A DNA stretch of 64,000 nt from Acidobacteriota bacterium (GTDB lineage Bacteria; Acidobacteriota; Blastocatellia; Pyrinomonadales; Pyrinomonadaceae): positions 124,001-188,000 of the forward strand of contig JAOAPY010000011.1 in NCBI GenBank assembly GCA_025463135.1, in the 5' to 3' direction. The translations under genes and the position numbers were made by a program. The number at the start of each line of letters is the position of its first letter. The stretch's first letter is position 1. The notes under the pieces were generated by a model. It ran no database searches. It was not told the origin of the DNA and saw only the letters and a program-made list of their open reading frames with translations. This document shows positions 6,475 through 22,894 of the stretch, piece after piece.

Positions 6475-6876
6475 ATGCGGCATACTTTACTGAAGCACTC
6501 CATCTCACTCTATCATCGTCATCGCTTTCCTGGCGAGATCATCAGTCATTGCATTTGGCTATATCTTCGCTTCGCTCTCAGCTTCCGCGATGTCGAAGAA
6601 ATGTTAGCGATGCGAGGCGTGGTACTCACTTACGAAACAGTCAGAGAATGGTGCCTCAAGTTCGGTCAGACTTACGCGAACAGTTTGCGACGCAGGGCTC
6701 CTCGCCCCGGCGACCGTTGGCACCTCAACGAAGTGTTCCTCAAGATCAAGGGCCGGCTCCATTATCTTTGCCGTGCGGTAGATCAGGATGGTGAGGTGTT
6801 GGATATTCTGGTCCAAAGCCACAGAGATAAGAAAGCAGCCAAAAAGTTCTTTGCTTCCACCCAATCGGGAAAATAA
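6475..6876 (+). pseudogene. IS6-family transposase remnant
   Basis: 133 residues matching the first half of IS6/IS240-type DDE transposases: N-terminal zinc/HTH part ('RHRFPGEIISHCIWLYLRF', 'LSFRDVEEMLAMRGVVLTYE', 'TVREWCLKFG') and the start of the catalytic core ('DRWHLNEVFLKIKGRLHYL', then 'RAVDQDGEVLDILVQ'). Family members are about 230 residues, so the second half is missing. The first catalytic Asp, normally in 'WHxDE', is Asn here ('WHLNE'). Both points say the protein is dead. Its ends and terminal inverted repeats could not be defined. Confidence 0.82.
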
Positions 6877-7189
6877 TTCAAAACTACAAGAGTTAGCCCC
6901 GTCACCCACCTCAATGCTTACTAATAAGACGGTTTTAGCCTCTCGTAATTCGAGAAACCTCTGACTCCACTGCGATCGCAGTTAAGTCGGCACCAGACTT
7001 AACACCACTTGCAGTGAAATGATAATCAGACGAGGCTGCATACTTACGTCCAATTAGGACGATCTTATCCTGCCACAACTCCGCGCGCTAGGCTGAAACA
7101 GTTGCGAGCTTTCGTGTAGGCCGGACCCGAACGATCCCCACTGCCCCGCAGGGGTTATTGATCATACTATTCGTCTCTGTAGCCGTAAG
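6877..7189. other. Non-coding stretch with two adjacent palindromes
   Basis: No convincing gene. TGCGATCGCA (6971-6980) is a perfect 10-base palindrome. It is followed at once by an 8-base perfect stem, GTTAAGTC (6981-6988) and GACTTAAC (6996-7003), with a 7-base loop. They may be an operator or mobile-element debris. The rest looks like decayed IS sequence. Confidence 0.4.
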
Positions 7190-7311
7190 CTAGTGGACTG
7201 TAACAGTGAGTTTGATAGTGCTAAAAGAAACGTCACGAATCGATTTTCGAACAACTCGACACCAAATAAACGCAATGAGCCACAAGCAATCTCGATCTTA
7301 TAGTCCACTAG
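7190..7311. mobile_element. ~122-bp MITE-like inverted-repeat element, copy 2
   Basis: The left end CTAGTGGACTGTAAC (7190-7204) is matched by the right end CTTATAGTCCACTAG (7297-7311) as an inverted repeat, 13 of 15. It has the same length class, same ends and partly alignable interior as the element at 1590-1712, in the same orientation. The minus-strand DUF4384 gene uses the TAG within the right end (7308-7310) as its stop codon, mirroring what copy 1 does to the serine recombinase. Confidence 0.6.
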
Positions 7312-8240
7312 CTGTCCCTGAGTTTTAGTGGGACCGAAAAGATTACCGGGTTCTCCGGCTTGATTGGTACGCGATACACAGTTTGCGGACCGGGATCACC
7401 CTGCGTTAATTCTACTGAAGAATCAGCGGCCGCAGCCTGCTCTTGCTCTGTCATGGCCTGCCCTGTTCCGCCGTCCATTTCATACGTAGTGGGCACGGTG
7501 CCCCATTTACTTTCCCATTCAGCCACCTGTTCTGCCGGCAGGTAAGGCTTAGTGCCCAGCTTTGCCGTGTCCACCAACGGCGTGGCGGACACCACGATCG
7601 TTAAGAGCTCTGCAACTTGTTTCTTACCGCTTGGCTTTGGCTCAATCTTAAACCCTTTTCCTTTCGCCGATGGGATCGAGATGACGCGACCGGCTTTGAC
7701 TTGATTCCCTTTTGGCAGTCTCCTGGATGGAAAGATAAGTAAGGGATCGCTCAAAGAGCCATCCGCATACTGCTCGCGATCGATCACGTACAGATAGCCG
7801 TCACGCGAAAGCGATTCGATGCTAAGGCGCACTATTTGCCCGGTAATAAAAGGCGTGCCGTTCTGCACACGCTCGAGCGTGAATTCGACCGGACCTTCCT
7901 CCGCGTCAACTTCGACCAGTTCCTTGGTCCTGTCGCGCGCCGTTGACTTGCGAAAGCGCCAGGTCGTTACTCCCACCTCGGCAAAAGCTAAACCTGCTGG
8001 CGGCTTTGTGGCGACCACAGTGCCCGCAGGCGGCTTGTTAGTAGCCTTATATCTGGCGTGAGTTTGAGCTGTTTTTCTCGACGGGTTCATCGGCGGACGA
8101 TTATCGAGAAACTCTTCGGCTCTGATGCCCTTCTCTTGATCATCCTGGGCACCAGTCACAGTGAGGCCTTCTGCCGCGACCAATAGCGAACAGCACCACA
8201 GAATCATGGCGAATCGTGTTCGGCGCGTTTTGGTTTTCAT
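7308..8240 (-). CDS. Secreted DUF4384-domain protein
   Basis: 310 residues. ATG 8240 was chosen because GGAGG lies five bases upstream; an in-frame start at 8282 would overlap the kinase gene. A signal peptide ('FAMILWCCSLLVAAEGLTVTGA') exports it. The middle (about residues 110-230) resembles DUF4384: 'IVRLSIESLSRDGYLYVIDR' followed by 'PLLIFPSRRLPKGNQV', the pattern seen in proteins linked to kinases and caspases. It follows the kinase by 28 bases and is surely cotranscribed with it. The kinase's own C-terminal domain looks like the same fold, which suggests a shared ligand or interaction. The stop codon comes from the inverted-repeat element, so the last few residues may be new. Exact function unknown. 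Confidence 0.72.
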   Translation of the reverse strand: MKTKTRRTRFAMILWCCSLLVAAEGLTVTGAQDDQEKGIRAEEFLDNRPPMNPSRKTAQTHARYKATNKPPAGTVVATKPPAGLAFAEVGVTTWRFRKSTARDRTKELVEVDAEEGPVEFTLERVQNGTPFITGQIVRLSIESLSRDGYLYVIDREQYADGSLSDPLLIFPSRRLPKGNQVKAGRVISIPSAKGKGFKIEPKPSGKKQVAELLTIVVSATPLVDTAKLGTKPYLPAEQVAEWESKWGTVPTTYEMDGGTGQAMTEQEQAAAADSSVELTQGDPGPQTVYRVPIKPENPVIFSVPLKLRDS

Positions 8241-8268
8241 GATGCCTCCACGGAATTCGGGTTGAGAA

Positions 8269-10026
8269 TCACTGATTTTCATGCAATAGCTCGACCAGGC
8301 TAACCAGAGTCTTAGCCCGACCCTTAACTATGGTCTGCTTTGGTTCGGCAAATGGAAGGATAGTGGGACGCTGGTTGGTGTCATCCCAAAGTTTTAGGTA
8401 GCCTTTGATGGTGTCTATCTCGGTAGCATTCTCAATGACGCCGCGAGTTTTTGCGGCATCAGCGAAGGCCACCTCCAAATCCGGGAGCGGTTTCTCGGAC
8501 CAGATAATCCAGAGCCGCTCGATCCCCTTGAACTCATCAAACCGATTACCGTCTATTTGGATGGTCTGTTCGGCGGCGAGTTGCGAGCTAGCATTCCTGG
8601 GTGTGGGAAAAAGTATATTGAATACCTTTTGTCCTCCTGGTCCCGGTCCTTCATTTACCAGATAGAGAGAACCCGATTGCGCGGCAGTAACGTTAAAAGC
8701 AAACCGCCAGTTGTTTCCGTAAATGTGGTTGCCTTCAGACTTGAATGGTTCGCCAAGCGGCTTGCCGTTTTGAATCTTCTGCACCACCAACCAGTATGCC
8801 AAGCACCGTTCGGGTCCAGCGTTGGCTGTGGCTGTGCCTGGAGGAGTAGTGGTTCTGGATCTGTTTTTCGCAACGTACCTGGCACCAACGCCAATCAAGA
8901 CCAGCAGCAAGGTCGCGGCCACTCCTCCGGTAATGTAAGGGCGTTTCTTTTTCGGGTCCTTGATTTTGGTTGACTCGAGAGGATCAACAATCAAGGTAGG
9001 CATTATCTTACGCTGATCCTGATCAATCCGAGGCGAAGGCGCCGCACCGGGCTGGGAGTCAATCAAGCCAACTGCCTGTGGTCGCGTGCGATCCGGATCC
9101 CCGAGGAGGGCCCAACTAACTTCATCGCCAAAGTCTCGTGCCTTTTGGTGTCGTGCTTCGGGCTCAAAGGACAGAGCTTTTAGAATCGCGTCCTGAGCCG
9201 CCTGCGGTAAGCTCGGACGCAAGTCCATTGGTTTGACGCGTACGCCGGCTCTTTGCATTTCCAGCAACTGGAACACTGACTCGGGATTGGTGGGTCTTCT
9301 GCCGGTCAACATTTCATAAGCCATCACGCCAAACGAGTAGACGTCGCTGGCGGGTGTCAACTTCCGAACGTTCAATTGCTCAGGCGACATGTAAGCGATT
9401 GTGCCCACCGCGCGCTCTTTGCCCGTACTCAACGAGGTAATTGAGTTCCGTACTTTGGCAACCCCAAAGTCGATCACTTTCACCTGCTCGTCACCGTCGC
9501 TGGTCCCTTTCAACATGACGTTTTCCGGCTTAAGGTCACGATGATATATCTCCTTGCGATGCGCAGCGGTCAAGGCTCGTCCCACCTGACGGATGATGTT
9601 AGCAGCGCGGCCGAACTCCATTCCTTCAGATCTGATGGCCGCGCGTAGACTGATTCCCTCGACATATTGCATGACGAGATAGGGTTTACCGTCCGGCATT
9701 TCACCAGCGTCGAAAATGCCGACGATACTGGGATGATCTACGCGCGCGAGGGCTTCGATCTCCTGTTTGAACTTTCTTACGCTGTATTCGTCACCGGGGG
9801 CTTGCTCCAGAACTACCTTCACCACGACAGGGCGAGAAACCATCTTCTGATCAAGAGCCAGGTAAACCACGCCGAAGCCGCCCTGGCCCAGCTTCGATTT
9901 GATCAGATAACGCCCAGCGATGAGGGTGCCCATAAGTGAATCTTCCGGTTCGCGAATGGTTGACAGTGAGTCTCCCCTACTCCAGTCGGCAATTTGGTTA
10001 TCCGTGCGTTCTGATGATTTATCCAT
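8269..10026 (-). CDS. Transmembrane Ser/Thr protein kinase with DUF4384-like C-terminal domain
   Basis: 585 residues from ATG 10026; a TTG at 10047 is an alternative. The kinase domain (about residues 35-295) is complete: Gly-rich loop 'GQGGFGVVY', lysine in 'RPVVVKVV', catalytic loop 'HRDLKPENV', 'DFG' and 'MSPEQL'. A basic linker leads to one membrane helix ('VAATLLLVLIGVGARYVA', about residue 370). The C-terminal outside domain (about 400-560) has 'SGSLYLVNEGPG' and 'FNILFPTPRN', like DUF4384. The layout is that of PknB-type receptors: cytoplasmic kinase, external sensor. It lies between the WD40-caspase gene and the DUF4384 gene on the same strand. Kinase activity is expected; substrates are unknown, the caspase being an obvious candidate. 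Confidence 0.88.
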   Translation of the reverse strand: MDKSSERTDNQIADWSRGDSLSTIREPEDSLMGTLIAGRYLIKSKLGQGGFGVVYLALDQKMVSRPVVVKVVLEQAPGDEYSVRKFKQEIEALARVDHPSIVGIFDAGEMPDGKPYLVMQYVEGISLRAAIRSEGMEFGRAANIIRQVGRALTAAHRKEIYHRDLKPENVMLKGTSDGDEQVKVIDFGVAKVRNSITSLSTGKERAVGTIAYMSPEQLNVRKLTPASDVYSFGVMAYEMLTGRRPTNPESVFQLLEMQRAGVRVKPMDLRPSLPQAAQDAILKALSFEPEARHQKARDFGDEVSWALLGDPDRTRPQAVGLIDSQPGAAPSPRIDQDQRKIMPTLIVDPLESTKIKDPKKKRPYITGGVAATLLLVLIGVGARYVAKNRSRTTTPPGTATANAGPERCLAYWLVVQKIQNGKPLGEPFKSEGNHIYGNNWRFAFNVTAAQSGSLYLVNEGPGPGGQKVFNILFPTPRNASSQLAAEQTIQIDGNRFDEFKGIERLWIIWSEKPLPDLEVAFADAAKTRGVIENATEIDTIKGYLKLWDDTNQRPTILPFAEPKQTIVKGRAKTLVSLVELLHENQ

Positions 10027-10103
10027 AGCCTTATTGAAATGACGCAAGAATTGAGACCGCAGTATTACAACATTAGTCGGAATCGGTTGAGTTTTTCATA
10101 AGA

Positions 10104-13100
10104 TCATTGCCTGCCGGGGCTGGATAGCTGGGCGACTATCAACCGTTGTGGCCCTGTTTTGGCGGCATAGAACGCCCTGGGCCTTTGTACTCGCCGCTCG
10201 TCAGCATCAACTAATTCGAGTTCTTTGCTGAGCTTGTCCGTTCCCATTTGCGGCACCCGCGCCATAGCGTAATCGAACCACTCATCAAGCAACACACGTC
10301 CGTCGAGGTCAGCGTCAGCTGCTCCGGATTTCATGCCCTCTTCGACCAAAGCGTAGGCCAGATAGCTGTGTTTAAAAGTTTCGGACTCGAAAGCCGCTTC
10401 GATGCTTTGGGAAGCGGTCAGGACGTACATTCCCTTTTCATATGCGAGTTGAGCCAGACCCCGCGTGTTCATAGGCCCACGACGTTTATCCACAGCCTCG
10501 AGGGCCTGGCCAGAATGGCATGCATCTATCACCAGCAGCAACTGCTCGGCATCCAGCGGTTTAAGTGCCTCTTCCAAATCCAAATCCGAGACACTGTGGC
10601 CCACAATTGCTTGAATCCCTCCCTGGGCACCAATATCGTGAGGGATCAGATAGAAGCGATCTTTCTGCGCAGTACCGTGGCCGGAAAAATAAATTACTAC
10701 AACATCTTCTGGCTGAGCCGCGCGAATTTTTGACAACTCAGCCGGCGCGCCTGGCGCCAATGGCGCCACGTTCGTTCCTGCCAGGCGTTGCAGCGCCAGC
10801 AAGATATTCGCCCTGGTGGCCTCTTCATTCAGAAGCGAGATGACCACGATCGGATTGTATTGGCCCACCAGTCGTTGCTGCTGCGCCCACTGATCGCCCA
10901 TGGCGAGGGCGTCGGCAGCGGAATAGTTCAGGTTGTATTTTGAATTCTCGTAGCGGCTCACCCCTATGCAAAGAACATACGCGGTCCCGATCCGTTTTAG
11001 GCTGTCATCACCGCGAACTGAAAGCGTAACATCAGCGCTCTTGACGTTCTCTCGATTGAAAGCATAGGCAGTAAATCGATTCTCGCCGGCAACCACTGGA
11101 ACAGGGGCTTCCAGGGTTTGGTCACTGCCCCCGGAAAGCACGTTACCGCTCCAAAGTTTGACCATCAACCCGTTGCGAAACAAGCGCAGATCCTGGGCGC
11201 CGCTTCCCTCTGAATGATCTTGATCGGGCTGAGCTTCTTTAACCTTGAGACGCACTGTGACGTTACGTTTATCGGGACTTGTGACAGAAGTCTCAGCAGC
11301 CACGAGTGAGATATCGATTTCCGGTTGGCGGCGATCTTTTTGTGCGATCTCAAACGGGGCCTTAGACTTGCTGCCCGAGAGAACCTCGGTTAACAGTCCG
11401 GGATAGAAGAACTCGGTGAAGAATGATTCGACTGGTGAAACGGCAAAGGTGTTCTTTGCGAATCGCCAGAGCAGCAATCCCCAGGATGACGGCGAGCCAT
11501 CAAACTGGCCTTCCGGAGTTACAACCAGCCAATCATCGCTCTCGCGCATTGAGACAAGGGTGACCATCAGTTCGCCGGTTGCCGGATCTGAAATGGTCAT
11601 AGTGCCATCAATGTCGCCGCACACGACCCATCTGGACGTGTTGCCAAAACTCACGCTGTGGATATTCCCCGCGCCTCGCACCAGCGTCTGAATTTCGCTC
11701 CCGCTCTCAACGTCCCAGATTCTGGCTGTATGATCACTGCTGCCGGAAACAAGCCATGGGCGATCGGGGCTGAAAGCCAGGGCCAGAACTTCTCCGTTAT
11801 GCCCGGTTAAGGTCTTCATAAGTCGTCCGCCAGCTACTTCCCAGATCGTGATGGTCTTGTCGGCGCACCCCACCGCAAGTGATTTGCCGTCAGGACTGAA
11901 CGTTAGCGCGTCGACATCATCAGCGAGAGTCGCCAGAATTCTTAGGAGTTGACCTGAGTTGGGATCCCAAAGCCTGATGGTCTTGTCCCTACCGGCAGAA
12001 GCGAGCAGCTCTTCTTGCGGGCTAAAACTAATACTGGTCACCTCGCCGTCATGTCCCGCGAGTATGCGCGAACTTCTTGTAGCGACGTCCCAGAGTTGAA
12101 TCGTCCGGTTACCTCCGGCTGCACCTAACCACTTCCCGTTGCTGCTGAAAGACACCGAATTGATTCCTCTCGGGCTGCTGGTGAGCTTGTAGGCTTCGCG
12201 GCCGGAACGCAGATCCCAAACCTTAACCTCGCCGCTGATGCTGCCCGAAACGAGAAAACGGTTGTTGTGGCTAAACGAGATGCTGGTAATAACGCCGCTT
12301 GATCCAAGCATGCGCGGTAGCTGCTGTCCGTTTGCTACTTGCCATAATCTGACGAAGCGGTCATTTGCGCCTGAAGCCAGCCACTTTCCGTCACTGCTGA
12401 CAGCCACCGCATAAAAGCCAGTTGAGCGGCTCTCGAAGGTCCGCACTGTTTTTCCATTCCTGCTGTCAAGCAGGGCGACTGTCCGCCTACCGGCAGTTGC
12501 GGCTACGTACTTTCCATCCGGGCTGAACGCGACCGACATTAAGGTCTCGGCAGCCTGTTTTCCTGCTGCCGGGCGTTTGGTTCCCTTCTCTTTTCCGTTC
12601 GTAGTATCCCATTCTCTGATCGCACCATCAGCGCTGGCGGCCCTCAACACGTTGTCAGTGAATGCAAGGGCCAGTACCCTGGCAGTTCCCTTGATGACAA
12701 AGCGCTCCTGGTCGGAGCCCTGCTTCCACACGTAAATTGACCCATCAGCGCTCGCAGAGGCGAGGGACTTGTTGTCGGGGCTGAAGGCTAATGAGGTAAT
12801 TCCATCATTGTGCTTTTGCAGTTTTGCCTTTTCACGCCACGTACCGGTATCCCAGAGTTCGATCGAACGATCCGCGCTGCCCGAGGCCAGCAGCTTTCCG
12901 TCTGAACTAAAGGCCAACGCTACTACCGCGCCGGCATGGCCCTTCAACAACTGCGACTCACCTCCAGCAGTGAGGTCCCAAATCCTGATGGAGTTGTCCC
13001 CGCTTCCTGAAGCTAGCCAACGTCCGTCTTGACTAAAGGAAACCGATTCGACTGACCGCAAATGCCCAGAAAAGTTGTGCAACTCTTGTCCGGTGACCAC

Positions 13101-13484
13101 GTCCCAAACGCGCACCGAGAGGTCATTGCTGCCTGATGCCAGCCAGTGTCCATCCGCGCTGACAGCGAGCGCCTTTACGTATCCCGTATGTCCTCTCAGA
13201 GCACGCAACTCTCGTCCGCTGGCTACCTCCCAGATTTTGATGGCATTGTCACTCCCGCCCGAAGCCAGCCAGCGACCACCAGGCCCAAAAGCTACACAAT
13301 TCACCCCCGACGTGTGACCGGTTTGCAGGACCAGTTCAGGGCGCGCAGTGGTATGAACATCTTCGGTCGAACTGATTGCCGGGCGGGACATCCACAACAC
13401 AAACCCAGTCAGGCATGAGAGGAAGAACATTGCCGTCAACGCCAAGCTGTTATCGCGCCATCCATAATTGGTTTTTCTCGTCAT
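10104..13484 (-). CDS. Membrane-anchored WD40-repeat caspase-like protease (C14 / metacaspase type)
   Basis: 1126 residues from ATG 13484 (a GTG at 13544 is possible but has no ribosome site). An N-terminal hydrophobic helix ('SLALTAMFFLSCLTGFVLWM') acts as anchor or signal. I count 14 WD40 repeats (about residues 53-648, e.g. 'LASGSADRSIELWD'), enough for two seven-bladed propellers. A linker of about 180 residues with Ig-like character follows. The caspase-fold domain (about 833-1085) keeps the catalytic dyad: His in 'VVIYFSGHG' and Cys in 'VIDACHSG'. Such proteins cleave after basic residues in known metacaspases and are linked to signalling or cell death. The gene sits between a TonB receptor and a transmembrane kinase. 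Protease activity looks intact; target and trigger are unknown. Confidence 0.88.
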   Translation of the reverse strand: MTRKTNYGWRDNSLALTAMFFLSCLTGFVLWMSRPAISSTEDVHTTARPELVLQTGHTSGVNCVAFGPGGRWLASGGSDNAIKIWEVASGRELRALRGHTGYVKALAVSADGHWLASGSNDLSVRVWDVVTGQELHNFSGHLRSVESVSFSQDGRWLASGSGDNSIRIWDLTAGGESQLLKGHAGAVVALAFSSDGKLLASGSADRSIELWDTGTWREKAKLQKHNDGITSLAFSPDNKSLASASADGSIYVWKQGSDQERFVIKGTARVLALAFTDNVLRAASADGAIREWDTTNGKEKGTKRPAAGKQAAETLMSVAFSPDGKYVAATAGRRTVALLDSRNGKTVRTFESRSTGFYAVAVSSDGKWLASGANDRFVRLWQVANGQQLPRMLGSSGVITSISFSHNNRFLVSGSISGEVKVWDLRSGREAYKLTSSPRGINSVSFSSNGKWLGAAGGNRTIQLWDVATRSSRILAGHDGEVTSISFSPQEELLASAGRDKTIRLWDPNSGQLLRILATLADDVDALTFSPDGKSLAVGCADKTITIWEVAGGRLMKTLTGHNGEVLALAFSPDRPWLVSGSSDHTARIWDVESGSEIQTLVRGAGNIHSVSFGNTSRWVVCGDIDGTMTISDPATGELMVTLVSMRESDDWLVVTPEGQFDGSPSSWGLLLWRFAKNTFAVSPVESFFTEFFYPGLLTEVLSGSKSKAPFEIAQKDRRQPEIDISLVAAETSVTSPDKRNVTVRLKVKEAQPDQDHSEGSGAQDLRLFRNGLMVKLWSGNVLSGGSDQTLEAPVPVVAGENRFTAYAFNRENVKSADVTLSVRGDDSLKRIGTAYVLCIGVSRYENSKYNLNYSAADALAMGDQWAQQQRLVGQYNPIVVISLLNEEATRANILLALQRLAGTNVAPLAPGAPAELSKIRAAQPEDVVVIYFSGHGTAQKDRFYLIPHDIGAQGGIQAIVGHSVSDLDLEEALKPLDAEQLLLVIDACHSGQALEAVDKRRGPMNTRGLAQLAYEKGMYVLTASQSIEAAFESETFKHSYLAYALVEEGMKSGAADADLDGRVLLDEWFDYAMARVPQMGTDKLSKELELVDADERRVQRPRAFYAAKTGPQRLIVAQLSSPGRQ

Positions 13485-13549
13485 CGTGGAAATTACTCTC
13501 ACCCAACAAATCCTCAGAGCCACATGCAAAGTCTTCTCATTCACAAAAA

Positions 13550-16500
13550 CTACAACGAATATTTCAAAGCGAGCTGCACCCGCCGCGCTGGAGTGACAGT
13601 ATCAGTTGCACGGCCAAAGCCGGCGGCGCCCAAATAACGGACCGGGATGCCAAAGTTCGCGCGGTTTATGAAATTGAAAATGTCCACGCGCAGGGTTAGC
13701 TTACGCTGGGCCGCTAAGGAAAAGTGCTTCGCCAATGACAGATCAAGGTCCAACAAGTTGCCCGACCGAAAAGTATTGCGGCCGATGCGTCCATCCTGCC
13801 CAATCGCTGCGAGCAGAGATCGCGGATCTGAGGCCGTCACAATTATTGGCTGACGCCTGTCGCCGGTGACGACAAGTCCCATCGTCGTGTCGAGCCGATC
13901 AGTGAGATTGCCGTCAAGGTTTACGTCGAAGATGCTATTCACCGTGAAGGGCTGACCGGTTTGAAATCGTCCGATGCCGGCAAGCTCCAGTTTCCCAACC
14001 AGCCAGCGAACGGCCTTTCGGCGAGTCTTGAAAGAGGGCAGAGCGTAAGTGAGATTATATGACAAACGGTGTCGGGCATCGAAGTTCGCCGGCCCGCGCT
14101 CCCCGGCAAAGCTCAAGCTGTCCTGAGGCAGAGCCGGTGCTCCAGCCAAATCGAACACATCGGAAACGTCATCGGTAACTCGCGACCAGGTATATGAAAG
14201 CTGATAGTGCGCCGCCTGCGGCAAGCGTCCGCGGAGTTGCACCTGCAGCGAATCGTATCTCGAATTCGCGGAGGATTCGTAAATGTTCACGGAGCCCGCC
14301 TGACTTACGGGACGCCCGCCCACGATCGCGCCACTGGGATCAAGGCTCTGCCCCGGTCCGATTGCGCGTCCCGATACGTTAGGTTGAAAATTAACAACGT
14401 TGATGACAGTCGGAATCAAAAACGCGTTGGGCCCGAGATTCGGAGTGGTCAGGCGCAGCAGATGCCGTCCCAGTGTGCCGACGTATGCAACCGAAACAAC
14501 CAGATTCTGGCGCAACTGCTGTTCGAAGGTGAATGCATAGTGATGCGCCGCCGGCATTTGAAAACTACGACTTGGCAACGTGAAACCAAAGCCGCCCGGA
14601 AAAGCTGTATTGATCGCCACCAGGCACTGCAGGGAGACGTCGGGATTGAGTCGATTAAGCGTGCCCGGCTGCGTCAGCGCCAAAAATTGCACTGTGCCGT
14701 TACTGTCGCGACAGGGAAAGAACGGCAAGCTCGGGTCAGTGATTCTAAACCCAACACCGCTCGCACTGGGCAAGCCACCGGCGAGATTGAGAGTGAGGAA
14801 GTTCGGAAACACATTGCGCGACTGGCTGACTACGGCGCCGATTGCCTGATCGTAAAAGAGTCCATAACCGGCGCGAAAGACTGTCGCCAGACTGCGCCCA
14901 AACAAGTTTGGTGAATAAGCAATTCCCAGGCGCGGTCCAATGTTGTTGTGATCGGGATTGAAGATTGAAGTCCGCCCTCCCAAAAAACCTCGAAATCCCG
15001 GAACGAGATCAAGCGACGGATCATTGAAAGTGTTTTCAATCCGGCGATTCGATTCGCGCGGCGGAGTGTTGTATTCGTAACGAACCCCAAAGGACAAGGA
15101 AAGGTTTGGCTTTACCCTCCACTGGTCCTGCCAGTAAAAGTTGTACTGATAATAACGGAGATTAATCCCCGAACCGCTTCCCCGCGTCACTGCCTGCAGC
15201 ACACCGCTGGGCGCGGAAGCCGCCACCAGATCGATCGGCTGGACAAATGTCTGAAACGTAACATTCCCCTGCGCATCCAGGGACAATTTTGGCCCGCCGT
15301 TGAAAGTGATTAACGGCCGCGCGTTGACGGGCAACTGACTGTTGAGCTCGGAGCGACGCACATCGCCTCCCAAGCCAAAGTTGTGACTGCCGACTCGAAC
15401 TGTGAGGGCATCGGCCAACTGATAGGTGTTATTGACGCGACGCTGCGGAAAGTTGAAAACATCAACGCCGGCAGGGCTAAACCCGGCGATCGTAACCTGG
15501 CCAAGCGGTCCCAGGATGTCTTCCGTGTTGAAATTGAAGAAATTGGCGTAAGGGACACTATTGGAACCCGGTACTGTATCGTTTACGCGCAAGGGGGCAT
15601 TCAGCAAAAAGGTCCCATCGTCCTTATTTGACCCGGCGCTGAGTTTGCTCGGCCGCAGGAATTGGTTATCGCGTCTTTCATCGAACACGAGCCGCGTGCG
15701 ACCGTAAGAAGCGCGGACCTGATTGAAAACCTGTCGCGAGGATCCGGGCGCGCTGATTTCGCTGTTAAGAAAGTTGGAGAGATTCTGCGTTCGCACGCGC
15801 GGCCTCAAGGTGGAAAAGAGAGCGCCGCCTGTTACCGGAATATCGCGCCAGTCGTTGGTGAAGTTGTAACGCGAAGCCACGCCCTGTTGCCGCTGTTTAT
15901 ATCTAAAGTTAGCGTCAACTTTTCCCGAGAACACCATGCCCCGCTCACCCGCCGGCAGCGACTGCGTGAAGGTGTTCGCGCCATAGATACCATTGGGATT
16001 GTTGGGAAAAGGATAGAGACTGAAGATTGCCTCGCCACTGATCGTGGCGGGAAAGCTGATTGCGGGCTGGCCAGTGAAAGGATCCACTGAAAGACCTGTC
16101 GCGCCGCTATTGAATAAGCCTCGTTGTTCGACTGTGGGAACCGCAAAGCTGGCTTCCTTTGAAGCATTAATCAGTTGCCCTTCTGCAGAGATGAAATAGA
16201 AAACGCTCGTTCCGGACTTCGCGGGCGTGGCGCGTTTCAATGGACCTCCCAGAACCATGCCACCGTTGACCAACGTCAGCGAATCCTGGCCGTCACTTTG
16301 ATTTCTGACTGAACCGGGCCTGCCGTCAAAGAGCACTGGCTTGCCCGCGGCAGTCAACGGCGTAACTGCGTTGCCAAAAGTAGTGTCAAAGAAGTTGCGC
16401 GCGTTCAAATGGCTGGAGTTGAAGAAAGCGTAGGCCGTGCCGTGGATCTGGTTACCGCCGGATCTGGAGACGGCGTTGACTTGTCCGCCAATGTTGCGGC

Positions 16501-17311
16501 CAAACTGCGCGGGAGCCAGCAGAGTGATCGTCTGATACTCCTGGATCGATTCCATCGGCTGAGCGATGAGCGCCACGAATCCCTGTCGCCGCACGCCGAT
16601 GTCCTCATCGTTGTTGTCTGATCCATCGACAGTGAAATTGTTCGCGCGTGAACGCAGACCGTTTACGGAAAACTGACCGGCTGAACCGACCCCGGCGCCC
16701 ACTCCAGGTCCCGCAACATTGCCCAGAGTTTGCGGTGGCGGCGCCACACCAGGAAGCAACAGGGCGAGCTCGTCAAAAGAACGGCTCGAGTGAGAGCTGA
16801 GGGGAAGGGTTGTTACCTCTTCGTGTGAAAAGGATCCACTGCGATGCCCGTCGACTCTGTTCATGCCGGCACGAATGTCGGTGTCCTCTATTCCGAGAGT
16901 AACCGCAGGCGTCGGCGTGGTCGTCGGAACCACCGGACTCACTTGGTCGAGTGCTACGGGCACGGGCACCACTTCGCCGGTAACCGTGATCCTCAGCAGC
17001 TGCCTCACCTCGTGGGTTTGATAGCCGGGCATTGATACGCGAACCCTGTACTCACCCGGGATTAGCAGTCCTTGAAAAAAACGTCCAAGGTAATCGCTAA
17101 GAAGAGGAGGATTGATCGCCACTTCAGTCTGCAGGTTGATGATTTCGACAACTGCTCCTTTCAGTGGCGCTCCGGTCTGGCTATCGGTGACGGTACCCCA
17201 GAAGGCTCCGGTAACAGTATCCTGGCCCTCAGTGGACTGAGCAGCAAGAAACAGCACGCATAGAACGGCCAGCGATAATTTAGTCAGAACAGTGCTTGAG
17301 GTGACCGTCAT
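13550..17311 (-). CDS. TonB-dependent receptor, Oar-like, with carboxypeptidase-regulatory-like domain
   Basis: 1253 residues from ATG 17311, preceded by AAGG; an in-frame GTG at 17377 lacks support. The signal peptide is 'LSLAVLCVLFLAAQSTEG'. Residues about 35-115 form a carboxypeptidase-regulatory-like beta domain ('GTVTDSQTGAPLKGAVVEII'), followed by a Thr/Pro linker, the plug ('NVAGPGVGAGVG', 'FSVNGLRSRANNFTVDGSDN') and a long beta-barrel. The C-terminus 'RRVQLALKYSL' fits an outer-membrane barrel end. It is the acidobacterial/Myxococcus Oar type: outer-membrane uptake or adhesion. The substrate is unknown. It lies 65 bases upstream of the WD40-caspase gene, on the same strand, suggesting co-expression. 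Confidence 0.88.
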   Translation of the reverse strand: MTVTSSTVLTKLSLAVLCVLFLAAQSTEGQDTVTGAFWGTVTDSQTGAPLKGAVVEIINLQTEVAINPPLLSDYLGRFFQGLLIPGEYRVRVSMPGYQTHEVRQLLRITVTGEVVPVPVALDQVSPVVPTTTPTPAVTLGIEDTDIRAGMNRVDGHRSGSFSHEEVTTLPLSSHSSRSFDELALLLPGVAPPPQTLGNVAGPGVGAGVGSAGQFSVNGLRSRANNFTVDGSDNNDEDIGVRRQGFVALIAQPMESIQEYQTITLLAPAQFGRNIGGQVNAVSRSGGNQIHGTAYAFFNSSHLNARNFFDTTFGNAVTPLTAAGKPVLFDGRPGSVRNQSDGQDSLTLVNGGMVLGGPLKRATPAKSGTSVFYFISAEGQLINASKEASFAVPTVEQRGLFNSGATGLSVDPFTGQPAISFPATISGEAIFSLYPFPNNPNGIYGANTFTQSLPAGERGMVFSGKVDANFRYKQRQQGVASRYNFTNDWRDIPVTGGALFSTLRPRVRTQNLSNFLNSEISAPGSSRQVFNQVRASYGRTRLVFDERRDNQFLRPSKLSAGSNKDDGTFLLNAPLRVNDTVPGSNSVPYANFFNFNTEDILGPLGQVTIAGFSPAGVDVFNFPQRRVNNTYQLADALTVRVGSHNFGLGGDVRRSELNSQLPVNARPLITFNGGPKLSLDAQGNVTFQTFVQPIDLVAASAPSGVLQAVTRGSGSGINLRYYQYNFYWQDQWRVKPNLSLSFGVRYEYNTPPRESNRRIENTFNDPSLDLVPGFRGFLGGRTSIFNPDHNNIGPRLGIAYSPNLFGRSLATVFRAGYGLFYDQAIGAVVSQSRNVFPNFLTLNLAGGLPSASGVGFRITDPSLPFFPCRDSNGTVQFLALTQPGTLNRLNPDVSLQCLVAINTAFPGGFGFTLPSRSFQMPAAHHYAFTFEQQLRQNLVVSVAYVGTLGRHLLRLTTPNLGPNAFLIPTVINVVNFQPNVSGRAIGPGQSLDPSGAIVGGRPVSQAGSVNIYESSANSRYDSLQVQLRGRLPQAAHYQLSYTWSRVTDDVSDVFDLAGAPALPQDSLSFAGERGPANFDARHRLSYNLTYALPSFKTRRKAVRWLVGKLELAGIGRFQTGQPFTVNSIFDVNLDGNLTDRLDTTMGLVVTGDRRQPIIVTASDPRSLLAAIGQDGRIGRNTFRSGNLLDLDLSLAKHFSLAAQRKLTLRVDIFNFINRANFGIPVRYLGAAGFGRATDTVTPARRVQLALKYSL

Positions 17312-17398
17312 TGGCAAAACCTTAGCAGGAAGCACGCCCTGGAGACGTCGACTTCGAAGACTCTTGATTCGGGACACGGAATCCGCAACCAGAAGTTT

Positions 17399-20300
17399 TC
17401 ACTGGCACTCCGTGTTGTTATGCGTAACTACGGGACTGAGGCGGAGCTGGTATTCCTGCGCGGTAATGAATGCACAAACCATAGAGCGCTGCTTGTCGAG
17501 GCTGCGCAGCGGAGCGCTGTTGACTTGACCCAGCCAGAAAAGATAGCCGGCGATATCCGGATTGCGTCGCAGGTATCCAAAATATTGCGTCAACACGAAC
17601 GTGCGATTGTATTCCGCATCGACAAAGGCCCGGTTGTTCACAGGATCGGTCGCGTTGTCGTCAGCCAACCGGTACATCACCTTGCCCCGGCCCCCCTGAT
17701 TAAAGAGATCGATCAAAGCCGTGCGCTGCGACGCCAGGTTCGGGCCGATGTCGGAGTTAATGGTAGCCAGCACCGCATCGACAAAGGCCGCCCCGCTGAG
17801 ACTACCGGGATACTTCGCTAAGAACTGGGGACGGAGCACAAAAGCATTCGCCAGATCCAATTGAGTCTCGGCCAGAGATGGGCCACCTCGGATCTGCGCC
17901 CGGTCGGGGGAAAACGCCGCGTAACTCACCAGCTTCTTTGCTTCTACCTGGTTTGCAGTGTCCGGATTCGGGAAGGGTTGATTGTTGCCATAGGCCGCGC
18001 GAAACAATCGTACTACATAAGCTCCTGTTTGCTGGTACTCCTGTTCGAAGAAGAAGGCATTGCTGACGGAGACACGTTGCGTGCGCAGGCAGGCCACGGT
18101 CGTACCACACATAGTGATCTGCCCCGTCCAGTAATCCAGCCCACTCTGATCCGGCACGCGACTGAGAAAATCGGAGTACTGCTGCTTGACGAAGAATTGT
18201 GCATTATCTAGGGGGTTCGAAGTAGGGGTTGTCGTATCGTTGTCGTTAATGGTTAAGGTAACCGTCGTTGGCCCACTGATGGTGCCTCCCGTAGCGTTAC
18301 TCAAAGTCAAATTCACTGTCTCGATGCTCTCAGCGTACAAATCATCATTGATGAGCACGCGAAACGTCTTGCTGGTCTCTCCGGGAGCGAAGGTCAATGT
18401 CCCAGCGGCGATGATGTAGTCGCTTTTTTGCAGCGCCGTCCCGTCGCTGGTGGCAAAGTTCACCGAACAACTTCCCGCTGTGTCTCCGGTGCGGACCACG
18501 TTAATGGTCGCGAAGCCGTCATTCTCCCCCGCGCTATAACTTGCGGCGCCGTATTGCAGCGTGGCCGGCGTGGAAAGATTAACGGGGAAGCAACCGGAGT
18601 ACTCAGACGTATTACCGGTGGGATCGGTGGCGGTCGTGTTTATGACACCACTGGTAAACCCTGCCGGAAAATCAAAAGGGATATTGAAGGGAGCATCTCC
18701 GTTGGCGTTGGTGATCACTCCGGGAATTCTTCCGAAGGCGAGAGGCCGCGAGCTTTGCGCATTGTTGATGCACTGCAAGTCGGGACTGAAATACCAATGC
18801 ACGGTGAAAGTTGTATTCGGCGCGCTGTTCAGCGTGCCGGCGACATTTAGGAATAAAGTGTGAGCTGGGTTCTGCTCATCCTGCCGGTCTTCGTGACGGG
18901 CTATTGTCGACGAGGAAAGTACGGGAAAGTTCTGTTGCAAATTAGCGCCGCCGTCCCCGTCGCGCAGATCGTTAGGCGTGAGTCCTTCAAAGCCGAGATC
19001 GACTGCTCGACTGGCGTTGCCGAAGATGTAGTTCAGGTCGAGGTTGACCAGCCTTCCGGAATTGTCATTGTCGTCAACGATACCGTTGGCATCAGGAATA
19101 CGAACACCATTCCTGCCATTGAAGGCAATGACGTTGGAATTGACATAGATGTTGACCGAATCAGCATCGACAAAGACGCCGTCCAGTCCGTTGCCTAGTC
19201 GCAGGGTTTGACTCGGATCGCTGCCTATTACATTGTAGACTATGTCCACGCTATCGCCTCCGGTAATGAACTGGCCGGGATTTTGGTCATTCAAGCGTCG
19301 GATGCCCACTCCAATTCCGTAGCGGCCGTTCGCAGCGATGTAGTTGGTTGTTCCTTGAACATCGGCGCGAACGTCAGCGCCGATAAAGTTGTTGGGAGCG
19401 CGAGTAATGAAGACTCCGCTGCCCGCGTTAGGAAGCGCGCCGTTGCCGTTGGCATTCAAGCCAATGTAGTTGCCCTGGACCTTATTGCGTTGAGAACCGT
19501 CGTTGATGATCTCGAGACCGTTGCCGCTGTCGAGGTTAGGATCGCCGGGGATCCGAAGATTCCCGGAGATGACGTTACGCGCCGCCGGCGTAGTTCCGCC
19601 GATGGTATTGTCGGTCGCAGTGACTGCCTGTCCGTTAAGCTGAAAGAACCCGCCAATGATTATGCCTCCGCCCAAATTAGGGATCGCGGCGGAGCCGGCA
19701 GCGTTGGTCCCAATGTAGTTCCCTTGTACGAGAATGCCGGCTGGATCGCTGAAGCCGATACCGATGCCTGGGGAGTTGTTGCCCGATACCAGATTGCGCG
19801 AGCCTGGCACTGTGCCCCCGATAACGTGGCTCGTCCCATTGATAAGAAAGATTCCGTTCGACTGGTTACCGAGATCGACCGTCCCGGTTACGTCCGTGCC
19901 CACAAAATTTCCCTGCACCCGGTTGGAGATTGAAAATTCTCCGCCGATTGCAATGCCGGGAGCGCGGTTCGCCGAAACTATGTTACGCGCCGCGGCCGCG
20001 GTCCCGCCGACCGTGTTGAACGACGAGTTGAAGAGATAGATACCGTTGCCGCTATTACACATACCGGCCGTCCCGCTCAGGTTCGTCCCGATAAAGTTGC
20101 CGTCAATAAGGTTATTGCCTCCTGAAACCAATTGTATGGCAGTGCCCACGCTCACGTTAGCATTCAAAGGGAGACTGCAATCCGTGGCCCCGAATCGATT
20201 GATGACCAGGCCGCGCACGCGACTGCTGCCGGAGCTGATCTTTAGACCAGACGTCCCTCGTGGTGTGAACTGGCCATTCAACTCGATCAGCGGTGTGCCG

Positions 20301-22894
20301 GCGAAGCCAGGCTGCGTTGTGCCATCGATTACCACCGGATCGGTGATTTCGGGTAAGGCCGTCAGCGGACTGATAGTACGCGGCGGCGGAACCTGGAAGC
20401 TGATGATGTCGACACCCAGATTGGCGTTGGCGTTGATAATTGCTTGTCGCAAGCTGCCGGGTCCACTGTCGTTGGTGTTGGTAACGATGGTGGGAGCTCC
20501 GCCCACGATGATTCCAATCGCATAACTGCCGGTCGCTCCGGGGAAAAATGAAGTTGCGTAGATGGTATAAAGGCCACTGACTGGCAAGATCGCTGAGCCC
20601 ACCGGCGGGATTCGGGAATTTGTGTCGAAGCCGGGTTGAACGTCGTTGTTCTCAGCTTGGGCTCCATTGGGAGCAGTCAAGTAAAGAAATGTGTCGAAGC
20701 TGTTAGAGGCCATTGCCACGATGGCCTGCTGACCCGCTATCCCGTTAAACGTATAGACGTCAGAAAATGAACCGAAGCGCGGCCCCGACGTGAATACGCA
20801 GTCGGCGGTGCTTAGGAAGCCTGAAACAGCCAGGCCGTTTGGGATTGGTATTGCCGGACAGGGTCCGCCGCCTCCGATCCCAATAAGGGTCAGCGAGTAA
20901 CTGCCGATCTGTGCGGGGCCAAAAGACGTCGCGTAAATCGTGTAAATTCCATTAGCCGGCAAGGAAATGAAACCGCCCGCCGTCGGAATATTAGCGTTCG
21001 TTCCAGCGCCGCCGTCGTCATCACTGGATAACAACGAACCGTTGGGCGAGACCAGGTAAAGGTAGGCATCGAAAGCGGACGAGTTCAACGTGATAGCCAC
21101 GAGCTGGCCGGCCGTACCGCTGAAGGTGTAGAAATCCACATAGGCCCCATCCTGCAGAAAACAATCCGTCGTGGCGAGCGTGCCGTTGATCGTTTGGCCA
21201 ACACTAATGGGCAAGGGCGAACAACCTCCGAACAGGTTAGGCGCTTGCCATTGCTTTACGCCTGGCTTTACCTGCTTATTCTCTCTTGGGTCGCCGGTGT
21301 TCGCGGCTTTGGTTGGATGCCCTTGACCACCGCTTGACCGATAGCCCCCTTGGTTAGGCACTCCAAATAAGTCCCCTGCCGGCGTGTCGCCTGGCCGGGC
21401 GGCCTCTTGATTTGGTCTTTCCGCAGTCAGCACGACGACCGGATCCGTCTGGTCTTGCCGCAAGACAACCAGCTCAGTTAGAGCGTCGACGTCAAGCTGC
21501 ATTGGCAGCACTGCCACTGGCTCTGCTCCTTCAAAGGCCAGGTCTGACAATTCGTTCTGCGAATCTTTTAGTCCTGCCCGCGCGTCGTTGGCGGAGTCCT
21601 TAGCACTGCCGGTCTGCAGAATTCGCACTCGCCGACCCGCTGAATCGAGCAGCAACAGATCCTCCTCGGCAGACGTCGAGAAGTCCGCAGCAATTAAACG
21701 TTCAGCACCTGGCCAGGTTGAGGGAAAATCGCTTTTCACCCATTCAGTGAGCGCTAGTCCGGCGCTGCTCTTGGGGTCAAGGTTTCTACCGGGGCTCAAC
21801 ACCTGCACCGCGCCTCCCAAGAAGAGTAATGCGATTTCAGGCTGCGAGTTTCCGTTGACTCGCCGTAGCGCCAACGACTTCAAATCCTGGTTGAATGAGC
21901 GACTCTCGATGCGAGCGGGAAGCACTGCCGTCCTTTTGTCCGGGGCAGCCGTTAACATTCGATCACGACCGTAGACGATCAGCACCTGGGGGCCGGCGGC
22001 AATAGCCAGATCGATAGTATAGGCGGAAGTTAGCTGGCCCAGCGCAAGCGAAGTGGCTGGTGCTGATAGTCCAAAGCTTTCTGGCTCAGCGTTGAGCGCC
22101 CCAGCCGGCCCTTCGTAAACGAGGGCCTCTGATCCGTTCTCCCCAGTAACGCCGACTACGACATCGGTTAGCCCATCGGCGCGATTGATCTCACCGGCAA
22201 CCAACGCGGTGACGGCCCCCGGCAAATAAACTTGCCTTGCCATTCCAAAATTACCCTGCCCGTCACCGGGCAAAAACGCTAGAGACCGATTTCCGCGCGC
22301 TGCTATTACAAGATCACAATGACCATCGGCGTCGAAATCACCAGTGCCAAGATAGTCAGGCGCCAACGACACCACACTGACCTGGGCGGAGGATAGAAAT
22401 GGCGCCGGGCGCATACCCATGGTCTCTCTTTCTTTCGCCGCGGGAGTATTGGGATAGATCGAATCAACATTTCCTCGCCGCAGTGCGATGATTCCACGAC
22501 CCTCGAGGGAGTAACCGCTGACGAGGTCCGGTACGCCATCTTCATCAAAGTCACCGGCTGCCAAGCTTAGAGGTTTGGCTTGGTTCTGGGTCAGCGCCCG
22601 CCGCAAGTCCTCCGGACCCTCGTAAGAAGTACGCACATTGAGGCCCGCATTCAAGGCGTTCGGGAGAGCGCCGGCAGGGCGCGCACTTGGGTTGGGTGCG
22701 GAGCGATCAGGATTCGGCGGCTTGGCCATTGTACTTTTGGCCCCATCCCCGGAAAAGGAGCGCGCAATGACTCGCAGTGGCGCGGGCATGAAGATCAGCG
22801 ACGTTGAACCAATCAGCAAAAGTGTCATCCAAAACAGGCCCTGGTGTCGATCATACGCTTGAGGTGTTCGGAGCCGGGTAGTGTGAGAGTTCAT
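17399..22894 (-). CDS. Giant secreted FG-GAP / PPC / beta-helix / Calx-beta / DUF4214 protein
   Basis: 1831 residues. A hydrophobic N-terminal segment ('FWMTLLLIGSTSLIFM') is followed by FG-GAP/VCBS-like repeats ('GDFDEDGVPDLVSGYS', 'GDFDADGHCDLVIAARGNRS'). Two PPC-type domains (about residues 558-672 and 678-798, 'SSDDDGGAGTNANIPTAGG') come next, then a right-handed beta-helix (about 800-1300, rungs such as 'GNNLIDGNFIGTN'). A Calx-beta domain (about 1438-1555, 'CSVNFATSDGTALQKSDY') and a DUF4214 region (1558-1828, 'YSDFLSRVPDQSGLDYW') end it. The FG-GAP and Calx-beta parts probably bind Ca2+. It is a clear paralogue of the 2823-residue neighbour upstream, almost collinear outside the expanded FG-GAP block. 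Likely a cell-surface or released adhesin; function not known. Confidence 0.85.
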   Translation of the reverse strand: MNSHTTRLRTPQAYDRHQGLFWMTLLLIGSTSLIFMPAPLRVIARSFSGDGAKSTMAKPPNPDRSAPNPSARPAGALPNALNAGLNVRTSYEGPEDLRRALTQNQAKPLSLAAGDFDEDGVPDLVSGYSLEGRGIIALRRGNVDSIYPNTPAAKERETMGMRPAPFLSSAQVSVVSLAPDYLGTGDFDADGHCDLVIAARGNRSLAFLPGDGQGNFGMARQVYLPGAVTALVAGEINRADGLTDVVVGVTGENGSEALVYEGPAGALNAEPESFGLSAPATSLALGQLTSAYTIDLAIAAGPQVLIVYGRDRMLTAAPDKRTAVLPARIESRSFNQDLKSLALRRVNGNSQPEIALLFLGGAVQVLSPGRNLDPKSSAGLALTEWVKSDFPSTWPGAERLIAADFSTSAEEDLLLLDSAGRRVRILQTGSAKDSANDARAGLKDSQNELSDLAFEGAEPVAVLPMQLDVDALTELVVLRQDQTDPVVVLTAERPNQEAARPGDTPAGDLFGVPNQGGYRSSGGQGHPTKAANTGDPRENKQVKPGVKQWQAPNLFGGCSPLPISVGQTINGTLATTDCFLQDGAYVDFYTFSGTAGQLVAITLNSSAFDAYLYLVSPNGSLLSSDDDGGAGTNANIPTAGGFISLPANGIYTIYATSFGPAQIGSYSLTLIGIGGGGPCPAIPIPNGLAVSGFLSTADCVFTSGPRFGSFSDVYTFNGIAGQQAIVAMASNSFDTFLYLTAPNGAQAENNDVQPGFDTNSRIPPVGSAILPVSGLYTIYATSFFPGATGSYAIGIIVGGAPTIVTNTNDSGPGSLRQAIINANANLGVDIISFQVPPPRTISPLTALPEITDPVVIDGTTQPGFAGTPLIELNGQFTPRGTSGLKISSGSSRVRGLVINRFGATDCSLPLNANVSVGTAIQLVSGGNNLIDGNFIGTNLSGTAGMCNSGNGIYLFNSSFNTVGGTAAAARNIVSANRAPGIAIGGEFSISNRVQGNFVGTDVTGTVDLGNQSNGIFLINGTSHVIGGTVPGSRNLVSGNNSPGIGIGFSDPAGILVQGNYIGTNAAGSAAIPNLGGGIIIGGFFQLNGQAVTATDNTIGGTTPAARNVISGNLRIPGDPNLDSGNGLEIINDGSQRNKVQGNYIGLNANGNGALPNAGSGVFITRAPNNFIGADVRADVQGTTNYIAANGRYGIGVGIRRLNDQNPGQFITGGDSVDIVYNVIGSDPSQTLRLGNGLDGVFVDADSVNIYVNSNVIAFNGRNGVRIPDANGIVDDNDNSGRLVNLDLNYIFGNASRAVDLGFEGLTPNDLRDGDGGANLQQNFPVLSSSTIARHEDRQDEQNPAHTLFLNVAGTLNSAPNTTFTVHWYFSPDLQCINNAQSSRPLAFGRIPGVITNANGDAPFNIPFDFPAGFTSGVINTTATDPTGNTSEYSGCFPVNLSTPATLQYGAASYSAGENDGFATINVVRTGDTAGSCSVNFATSDGTALQKSDYIIAAGTLTFAPGETSKTFRVLINDDLYAESIETVNLTLSNATGGTISGPTTVTLTINDNDTTTPTSNPLDNAQFFVKQQYSDFLSRVPDQSGLDYWTGQITMCGTTVACLRTQRVSVSNAFFFEQEYQQTGAYVVRLFRAAYGNNQPFPNPDTANQVEAKKLVSYAAFSPDRAQIRGGPSLAETQLDLANAFVLRPQFLAKYPGSLSGAAFVDAVLATINSDIGPNLASQRTALIDLFNQGGRGKVMYRLADDNATDPVNNRAFVDAEYNRTFVLTQYFGYLRRNPDIAGYLFWLGQVNSAPLRSLDKQRSMVCAFITAQEYQLRLSPVVTHNNTECQ

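Follow-up and report, generated by a model that had tools for sequence, protein, structure and literature searches.

A 64,000-nucleotide stretch of an Acidobacteriota bacterium genome (GCA_025463135.1, contig JAOAPY010000011.1, positions 124,001 to 188,000; hereafter the window) encodes three adjacent genes on its minus strand, for a WD40-repeat caspase of the metacaspase type, a transmembrane Ser/Thr receptor kinase and a small, predicted secreted protein with a DUF4384 domain. Sequence comparison indicates that the three genes form a conserved unit that recurs among soil Acidobacteriota, that the core of the kinase ectodomain and the small DUF4384 protein are homologous, and that the protease of the unit is exchangeable, being either a WD40-caspase or a tetratricopeptide-repeat (TPR) CHAT protein. 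The conserved module is probably extracytoplasmic. With about even confidence, we propose that it works as an outside-in extracytoplasmic sensor with the protease upstream, and not as an internal cell-death pathway.

The three genes of the window

The positions, strand and spacing given in a preliminary description of this DNA were borne out by the listing of open reading frames (ORFs): three minus-strand genes at 10104-13484 (caspase), 8269-10026 (kinase) and 7308-8240 (DUF4384 protein), with gaps of 77 bases between the caspase and kinase genes and 28 bases between the kinase and DUF4384 genes. We kept the gene starts of that description; the longest ORFs start at 13544, 10047 and 8282, respectively. 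The features are as follows.

10104-13484 (longest ORF to 13544), minus strand: predicted exported WD40-caspase of the metacaspase type, 1126 amino acids (aa) from the chosen start (ORF, PF00656, WD40)
13389-13445, minus strand: N-terminal hydrophobic segment after basic residues, a putative signal peptide or signal anchor that would place the rest outside (sequence, hydropathy, export rule)
11580-13328, minus strand: 14 WD40 repeats, two seven-bladed propellers expected (repeat spacing and Pfam)
10122-10997, minus strand: caspase p20-like domain (motifs, PF00656, alignments)
10677-10679, minus strand: catalytic His956 (SGHG), ORF numbering (motif, domain alignment)
10518-10520, minus strand: catalytic Cys1009 (DACHSG), preceded by Asp1007, ORF numbering (motif, domain alignment)
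8269-10026, minus strand: transmembrane Ser/Thr receptor kinase (PF00069, 160 bits)
9148-9903, minus strand: kinase catalytic domain (Pfam and motifs)
8872-8940, minus strand: kinase transmembrane segment (hydropathy)
8272-8841, minus strand: kinase ectodomain, DUF4384-related, a predicted beta-sandwich with helices and a C-terminal hairpin (hhalign; model with a predicted local distance difference test score, pLDDT, of 90.6)
7308-8240, minus strand: predicted secreted DUF4384 protein, with signal peptide, N-terminal motif, basic linker and DUF4384 domain (profile search; model pLDDT 89.4)
8091-8129, minus strand: N-terminal motif near the mature end, GIRAEEFLDNRPP, family pattern approximately [TS]R-x-[LI]-x(4)-F-[IL]-x-x-R-P (motif counts)
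8046-8090, minus strand: basic linker that joins the N-terminal motif to the folded domain (composition)
7611-7832, minus strand: DUF4384 profile match (profile searches)

The caspase has 14 WD repeats at a spacing of ~42 residues when counted by eye, and Pfam gives 11 WD40 stretches. Its match to PF00656 (Peptidase_C14), 33.8 bits, lies over the cut-off of 21.4, and the p20 profile match together with the His/Cys dyad (His956, Cys1009) places it among the metacaspases/orthocaspases; the 14 repeats and intact dyad reported at the outset both stand. Across 40 aligned caspase domains the His is present in all and the dyad is intact in 37, and the Asp two residues before the Cys (D-x-C) is found in all 38 in which that column is filled. 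Metacaspases show D-S-C-H-S-G at the place of the window DACHSG (a weak match, E 0.34). We take this Asp to be the acidic S1 residue, which goes with a preference for Arg/Lys. In a motif search of 29 CHAT proteins, 22 had the His as well as the Cys, and six of the seven misses lacked the His pattern only. One clustered WD40-caspase on another contig of this genome (C51, 82122-85442) has no catalytic Cys in the alignment (DAP, not DAC) and is a possible pseudo-protease.

The kinase contains the motifs GxGxxG, HRDLKPEN and DFG, a single transmembrane segment near residue 370 and ~190 residues beyond it. Catalytic motifs, one transmembrane segment and a C-terminal domain past it are the features of a Hanks-type receptor Ser/Thr kinase.

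Conservation of the module

Nine DUF4384 places, of which one falls short of the cut-off, were located in the 6.48 Mb genome, along with four modules that combine a kinase, a small DUF4384 protein and a clan CD protease. Here the sigma factor is of the extracytoplasmic function (ECF) type.

C21: the window, with the WD40-caspase
C51: module with a caspase, inside a caspase cluster
C34: ECF sigma factor, kinase, two TPR-CHAT proteins and DUF4384 protein
C25: kinase, DUF4384 protein and TPR-CHAT protein

The C51 cluster, at ~63276-116447 (L018-L021, ~53 kb), holds 11 caspase-profile genes, two CHAT genes and one complete kinase/DUF4384 module. It includes several WD40-caspases, one with two caspase domains, and appears as an unusual local expansion of predicted exported caspases.

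Among 297 genomes of the phylum, the ectodomain profile was found in 20 and the small-protein profile in 18. A kinase-length match occurs in 15 genomes, 13 of which also have the small protein, versus 5 of the 282 other genomes (Fisher test). A contig scan with one small-protein peptide pattern returned 34 loci, 33 titled as Acidobacteriota-type bacteria and one as a planctomycete (a weak match), with a DUF4384 kinase in 19 and a caspase or CHAT in 23. After removal of five repeat loci the kinase was present in 14/29, the protease in 19/29, both in 10 and neither in 6, many of these contigs being short. The window gene order on one strand recurs in four other Acidobacteriota genomes (L091, L092, in which the contig end cuts the caspase, L093 and L102), so that the conserved neighbourhood in relatives, which had been named as a check on the original observation, was found. 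In these loci the caspase is 47-56% identical to that of the window, and the small protein 48-54% in L091-L093. The kinase tree groups the window with L091-L093 at a support of 100.

To put the association in numbers, neighbours were counted within ~9 kb of 37 DUF4384-kinase loci, comprising the four loci of this genome and 33 rows from other genomes whose open frame spans 535 aa or more; shorter DUF4384-only rows were left out, and several stretches end at a contig end. A separate DUF4384 gene is present at 29 loci, a caspase at 11, a CHAT gene at 15 and either protease at 25, versus none of these at 33 control kinases (Fisher p = 5e-10 for either protease). The count of 29 is an undercount, as a small gene inside L076 was missed and L061 and L064 each have one just past their end. 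The kinase gene shares its strand with the DUF4384 gene in all 40 loci that have both, 28 of them within 300 bp, and with the protease gene in 30 of 35.

The controls were high-scoring kinases, hand-picked and not random, from the rows listed out of 534 matches in 8 genomes. One of them, L134, matches DUF4384 itself, and another, L138, has no kinase labelled by profile. Some listed kinase rows near contig ends or in already sampled contigs were passed over, as was, because of its place next to the C51 caspase cluster, a kinase of this genome (C51:58472) that has both a caspase and a CHAT piece less than 9 kb away. Adding this kinase raises the control protease count to 1/34 (p = 4e-9), and counting also a CHAT gene 435 bases past the end of the control stretch on G255:C16 gives 2/34 (p = 7e-8). 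Restricted to the same 8 genomes, a protease is found at 21/30 module loci versus 0/33 controls. Without the four loci of this genome, which seeded the profiles, the DUF4384 gene is present at 25/33 and a protease at 21/33. By chance, ~3 proteases would be expected in either set of stretches (268 places in ~55 Mb, whole-genome counts).

Kinase ectodomain and small protein share a homologous core

Comparison of the ectodomain and small-protein family alignments with hhalign yields 98.0% (4 versus 4 sequences) and 97.4% (20 versus 26), over a core of ~95 residues (93-99 columns). Iterated profile searches of the fetched loci, seeded by the ectodomain or by the small protein, converge on the same 66 proteins. 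The likeness of the small protein to the external domain of the kinase, as first described, holds over this core. Against DUF4384 itself (PF14326, cut-off 27) the window small protein is borderline, scoring 25.2 bits in hmmscan and 27.6 bits when the genome was searched. Its counterparts in the C34 and C25 modules reach 33.0 and 45.4 bits, and the kinases of these modules match below the cut-off (19.5 and 22.4 bits).

The predicted models (pLDDT 90.6 for the ectodomain, 89.4 for the small protein) each show a beta-sandwich followed by helices and a final hairpin. The order of the elements after the sandwich differs, being helix-helix-strand-hairpin in the ectodomain and helix-strand-helix-hairpin in the small protein. 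The expectation that the C-terminal domain of the kinase folds like the DUF4384 protein is therefore upheld for the homologous core and the similar predicted folds; the layout is not identical. Foldseek returned no solved structure at E <= 0.001 for either model. With VIA-align the best matches were middling (ectodomain: Z 7.3, rmsd 3.3, 107 aligned; small protein: Z 5.6, rmsd 3.3, 107 aligned) and scattered across Ig-like sandwiches, with RhoGDI in both lists, and we read no function from them.

Ahead of its folded domain, the small protein has two distinctive segments. The stretch after the signal peptide is basic, with 18.2% Lys+Arg versus 10.8% in 224 other exported proteins (p = 1.4e-17), and contains a basic pair in 43/47 small proteins versus 98/224 others. 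Before this stretch lies an N-terminal motif, defined post hoc after inspection of the sequences, which a loose pattern finds in 31/45 small proteins versus 38/224 other exported proteins (shuffles: mean 12.2, maximum 21). Alternative patterns gave 31/45 versus 33/224, 21/45 versus 12/224 and 34/45 versus 72/224. The motif counts (n=45) exclude two truncated rows, the first gene of L116 and L123, which are included in the linker counts (n=47). In the window model the mean pLDDT is 60 at residues 1-10 and 88 at residues 11-20, and the motif spans both.

The two homologous domains also diverge together. Over the 39 loci that have both, the distances among ectodomains correlate with those among small proteins at r=0.74, and the partial correlation given the catalytic domain is 0.65, with 0/2000 permutations as high. 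Catalytic domain and small protein given the ectodomain correlate at only 0.18, with 64/2000 permutations as high. Such co-divergence would be expected of two domains that bind each other, and also of genes inherited as one unit in which the catalytic domains had been swapped.

The protease is exchanged and carries export-type N-termini

On a tree of 51 kinases made with a quick method, the nearest protease is a caspase in 18 and a CHAT protein in 17, with neither within 9 kb in 16. This distribution implies at least six switches between caspase and CHAT among the 35 labelled kinases. A clade of eight that includes the C34 kinase (support 98) has CHAT throughout, and in seven of its eight members an ECF gene overlaps the kinase gene or lies within 35 bp of it on the same strand. 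Six ECF proteins match TIGR02999, that of C34 among them and four from outside this clade.

Scored by a crude hydropathy rule of our own on proteins from the fetched loci, an export-type N-terminus is present in 37/39 caspases (that of the window included) and 24/27 CHATs, together 61/66, in 46/51 small proteins, and in 5/51 DUF4384 kinases, 0/14 ECFs and 0/5 other kinases. Of the CHAT proteins, the three without such an N-terminus appear to be fragments or to have been given late starts. Provided that the rule is sound, the protease, its partner and the ectodomain lie in the same compartment, opposite the kinase domain. A caspase outside could then not be a direct substrate of the kinase domain, and the direct step first proposed, in which the kinase relays a signal to the caspase as effector, finds no support; a transcriptional route from kinase to protease is possible.

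A proposed mechanism and its alternatives

In the sensor that we favour, the secreted DUF4384 protein would be the cognate partner of the kinase ectodomain, binding to it or being displaced from it. The exported protease would act upstream in the envelope, its WD40 or TPR part recognising something outside. Its cut would follow a basic residue and might fall within the basic linker of the DUF4384 protein. Cleavage would alter this partner and hence the activity of the kinase, with cytoplasmic phosphorylation as the output. In the C34 sister lineage, the phosphorylation target would probably be the ECF sigma factor encoded beside the kinase. Fusions in the same genome physically tie the protease to the sensing domain: two C51 caspases also match DUF4384 within their own chain (30.3 and 23.1 bits, the second 27.6 in the genome search), and the frame of a third caspase gene on C51 contains another DUF4384 place (35.4 bits). 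A planctomycete (Thermoguttaceae) caspase with a weak DUF4384 match, adjoining a second caspase gene, was also seen (L124, 9839-11245).

A more specific form of this sensor would be a bacterial counterpart of protease-activated receptor signalling. Here an exported Arg/Lys-specific caspase or CHAT protein would cut the conserved basic linker, the freed [TS]R-x-[LI]-x(4)-F motif or DUF4384 domain would engage the kinase ectodomain, and a protease swap would change what the module senses. We regard this version as speculative and improbable as it stands.

Several points count against an upstream protease. The export rule is crude, and two caspases (L066 and L080), of which the first is the sole caspase of its module, have no export signal and do not look like fragments or late starts. 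Twelve of the 37 module loci have no caspase or CHAT within ~9 kb; the protease is thus not obligatory or is located elsewhere. The caspase and CHAT families far outnumber the module (this genome has 12 places for PF00656 and 21 for PF12770). In the stretch read around a close paralogue on contig C11 (57622-61506), a WD40-caspase 51% identical to that of the window over the caspase domain, neither a kinase nor a DUF4384 gene was labelled. The enrichment of ECF genes near module loci is not significant (10/37 versus 4/33 controls, p=0.14), and three control kinases also adjoin an ECF gene. Lastly, in L065, L073 and L076 the ECF and CHAT genes are same-strand neighbours (104 bp apart, or with an overlap of 48 in two), divergent from the kinase, an arrangement that fits the protease as output better than as input. 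This divergent ECF/TPR-CHAT pair is, in its own right, a possible autoregulated circuit.

The protease could accordingly be the output. Kinase and DUF4384 protein would then sense envelope stress or a competitor and, via an ECF or another regulator, switch on an exported protease that attacks or processes surface proteins. We consider this possible, if rather unlikely. Besides the divergent pairs, the swapping of the protease type while the sensor pair stays is as expected of exchangeable effectors. Against it, a scan of C21 from 12 kb before the window up to window position 24000 gave no ECF match, so that the window module has no ECF sigma gene beside its kinase; the fusions tie the protease to the sensing domain; and the window clade has protease and kinase in one operon-like run.

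We think it unlikely that the genes are neighbours by descent only, with kinase and DUF4384 protein as a two-gene sensor and the proteases as independent surface enzymes that cluster nearby. The loci without a protease are in line with this, as is the breadth of the C51 cluster, where many proteases lie beside one module. The absence of caspase and CHAT genes from the control kinase loci of the same genomes (one in 34 when the kinase passed over is added) speaks against it, as do the strand agreement of kinase and protease and the gene order shared with four other genomes.

It is very improbable that the system is a cytoplasmic relay, built on the chain from kinase to caspase in the preliminary description, with the kinase phosphorylating and activating a caspase that kills or remodels the cell. 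Its two components are intact and encoded side by side, the accessible text of PMC7475262 links the caspase family to cell death, and the L066 caspase would be placed inside, but export-type N-termini prevail among the caspases, that of the window included, and an exported CHAT replaces the caspase in sister modules.

Neighbouring genes

In the region 6800-18000, promoter-like sites (3 versus 5.3 in shuffles) and terminator-like sites (14 versus 13.5) are as frequent as by chance. Upstream of the caspase gene, on the minus strand, lie genes for an Oar-like barrel protein (13550-17377) and a protein of 1831 aa with FG-GAP, PPC, Calx-beta and DUF4214 domains (17399-22894), and a very long ORF (23104-31575, 2823 aa). 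The Oar-like receptor, which had been suggested to stand above the system, was rejected as a conserved part of the set. Homologues were found near 2/33 module loci versus 5/33 control loci, and both module loci (L072 and L075) have no protease. Ten large neighbours of protease-less loci (10 of these 12 loci, with one neighbour apiece) comprise two Oar-like barrels and two proteins with NHL repeats, the rest having nothing in common.

Homologues of the 17399-22894 protein (P0005) occur near five module-type loci (L072, L080, L093, L111 and L112) and no control loci, which is too few for a claim. A DUF4214 and CarboxypepD_reg protein adjoins the C34 module (C34, 13604-15877) and shares DUF4214 with this window protein.

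Comparison with known systems

The arrangement is reminiscent of kinase-to-ECF signalling as described for ECF43-type factors in the accessible parts of reports on PknS-EcfK of Xanthomonas citri (PMC13147305) and PknT-EcfP of Vibrio parahaemolyticus (PMC8999054); the former is a precedent for an output from receptor kinase to ECF. These systems also have a Hanks-type kinase, with one transmembrane segment and a periplasmic C-terminal region in PknS, and in the C34 sister lineage an ECF gene likewise overlaps or abuts the kinase gene. However, PknS has TPRs in the periplasm and DUF4384 is not mentioned in PMC13147305, and neither an exported caspase or CHAT protein nor a secreted DUF4384 partner is described in the accessible text of the two papers. 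Furthermore, no ECF was found beside the window module, and the ECFs classified from sister modules match TIGR02999. Against the profile of PknB-type PASTA kinases (NF033483) the window kinase scores 262.1 bits, under the cut-off of 450. Its best score against the defence kinase PD-T4-6 (PADLOC), 245.6 bits over residues 41-316, covers the generic catalytic domain, and this profile has no stated curated cut-off.

With prokaryotic orthocaspases and metacaspases, as far as the accessible text of PMC6426788, PMC7475262, PMC8283722 and PMC3501461 goes, the protease shares the p20 domain, the His/Cys dyad and WD40 or DUF4384 accessory domains. In the portions accessible, PMC3501461 also treats N-terminal helices of metacaspases, possibly signal peptides, and metacaspase operons in general terms. 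Those portions of the four papers do not, however, describe a module of three genes that has a DUF4384 receptor kinase as well as a secreted DUF4384 protein encoded separately.

NTP-dependent conflict systems resemble the module in their caspase-type protease effectors and, in some, kinases (PMC7159879, in its accessible part; such systems are also described in the accessible part of PMC10907252). They are NTPase-centred, whereas the three genes of the window show no NTPase. In the main text of PMC7159879 the terms 'secreted' and 'signal peptide' are absent and 'extracellular' occurs five times; the proteases here have export signals. The window caspase scores 59.8 bits against the EACC1-associated caspase of conflict systems (NF047832), under the cut-off of 140.

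The literature searched, largely without subscription papers, contained no account of this module. Fusions of DUF4384 with kinases and caspases were already known; the combination is apparently undescribed.

Bacterial caspase homologues are usually discussed as internal executioners of cell death or defence. Here, members of the caspase family with mostly intact active sites carry export signals, and a shared domain links them to a receptor kinase. If our proposal is true, it would give exported metacaspases and CHAT proteins a testable role in envelope sensing, and DUF4384 a functional context as a paired ligand/receptor domain. It would also provide a defined set of ~50 loci in which to try binding, cleavage and kinase activation.

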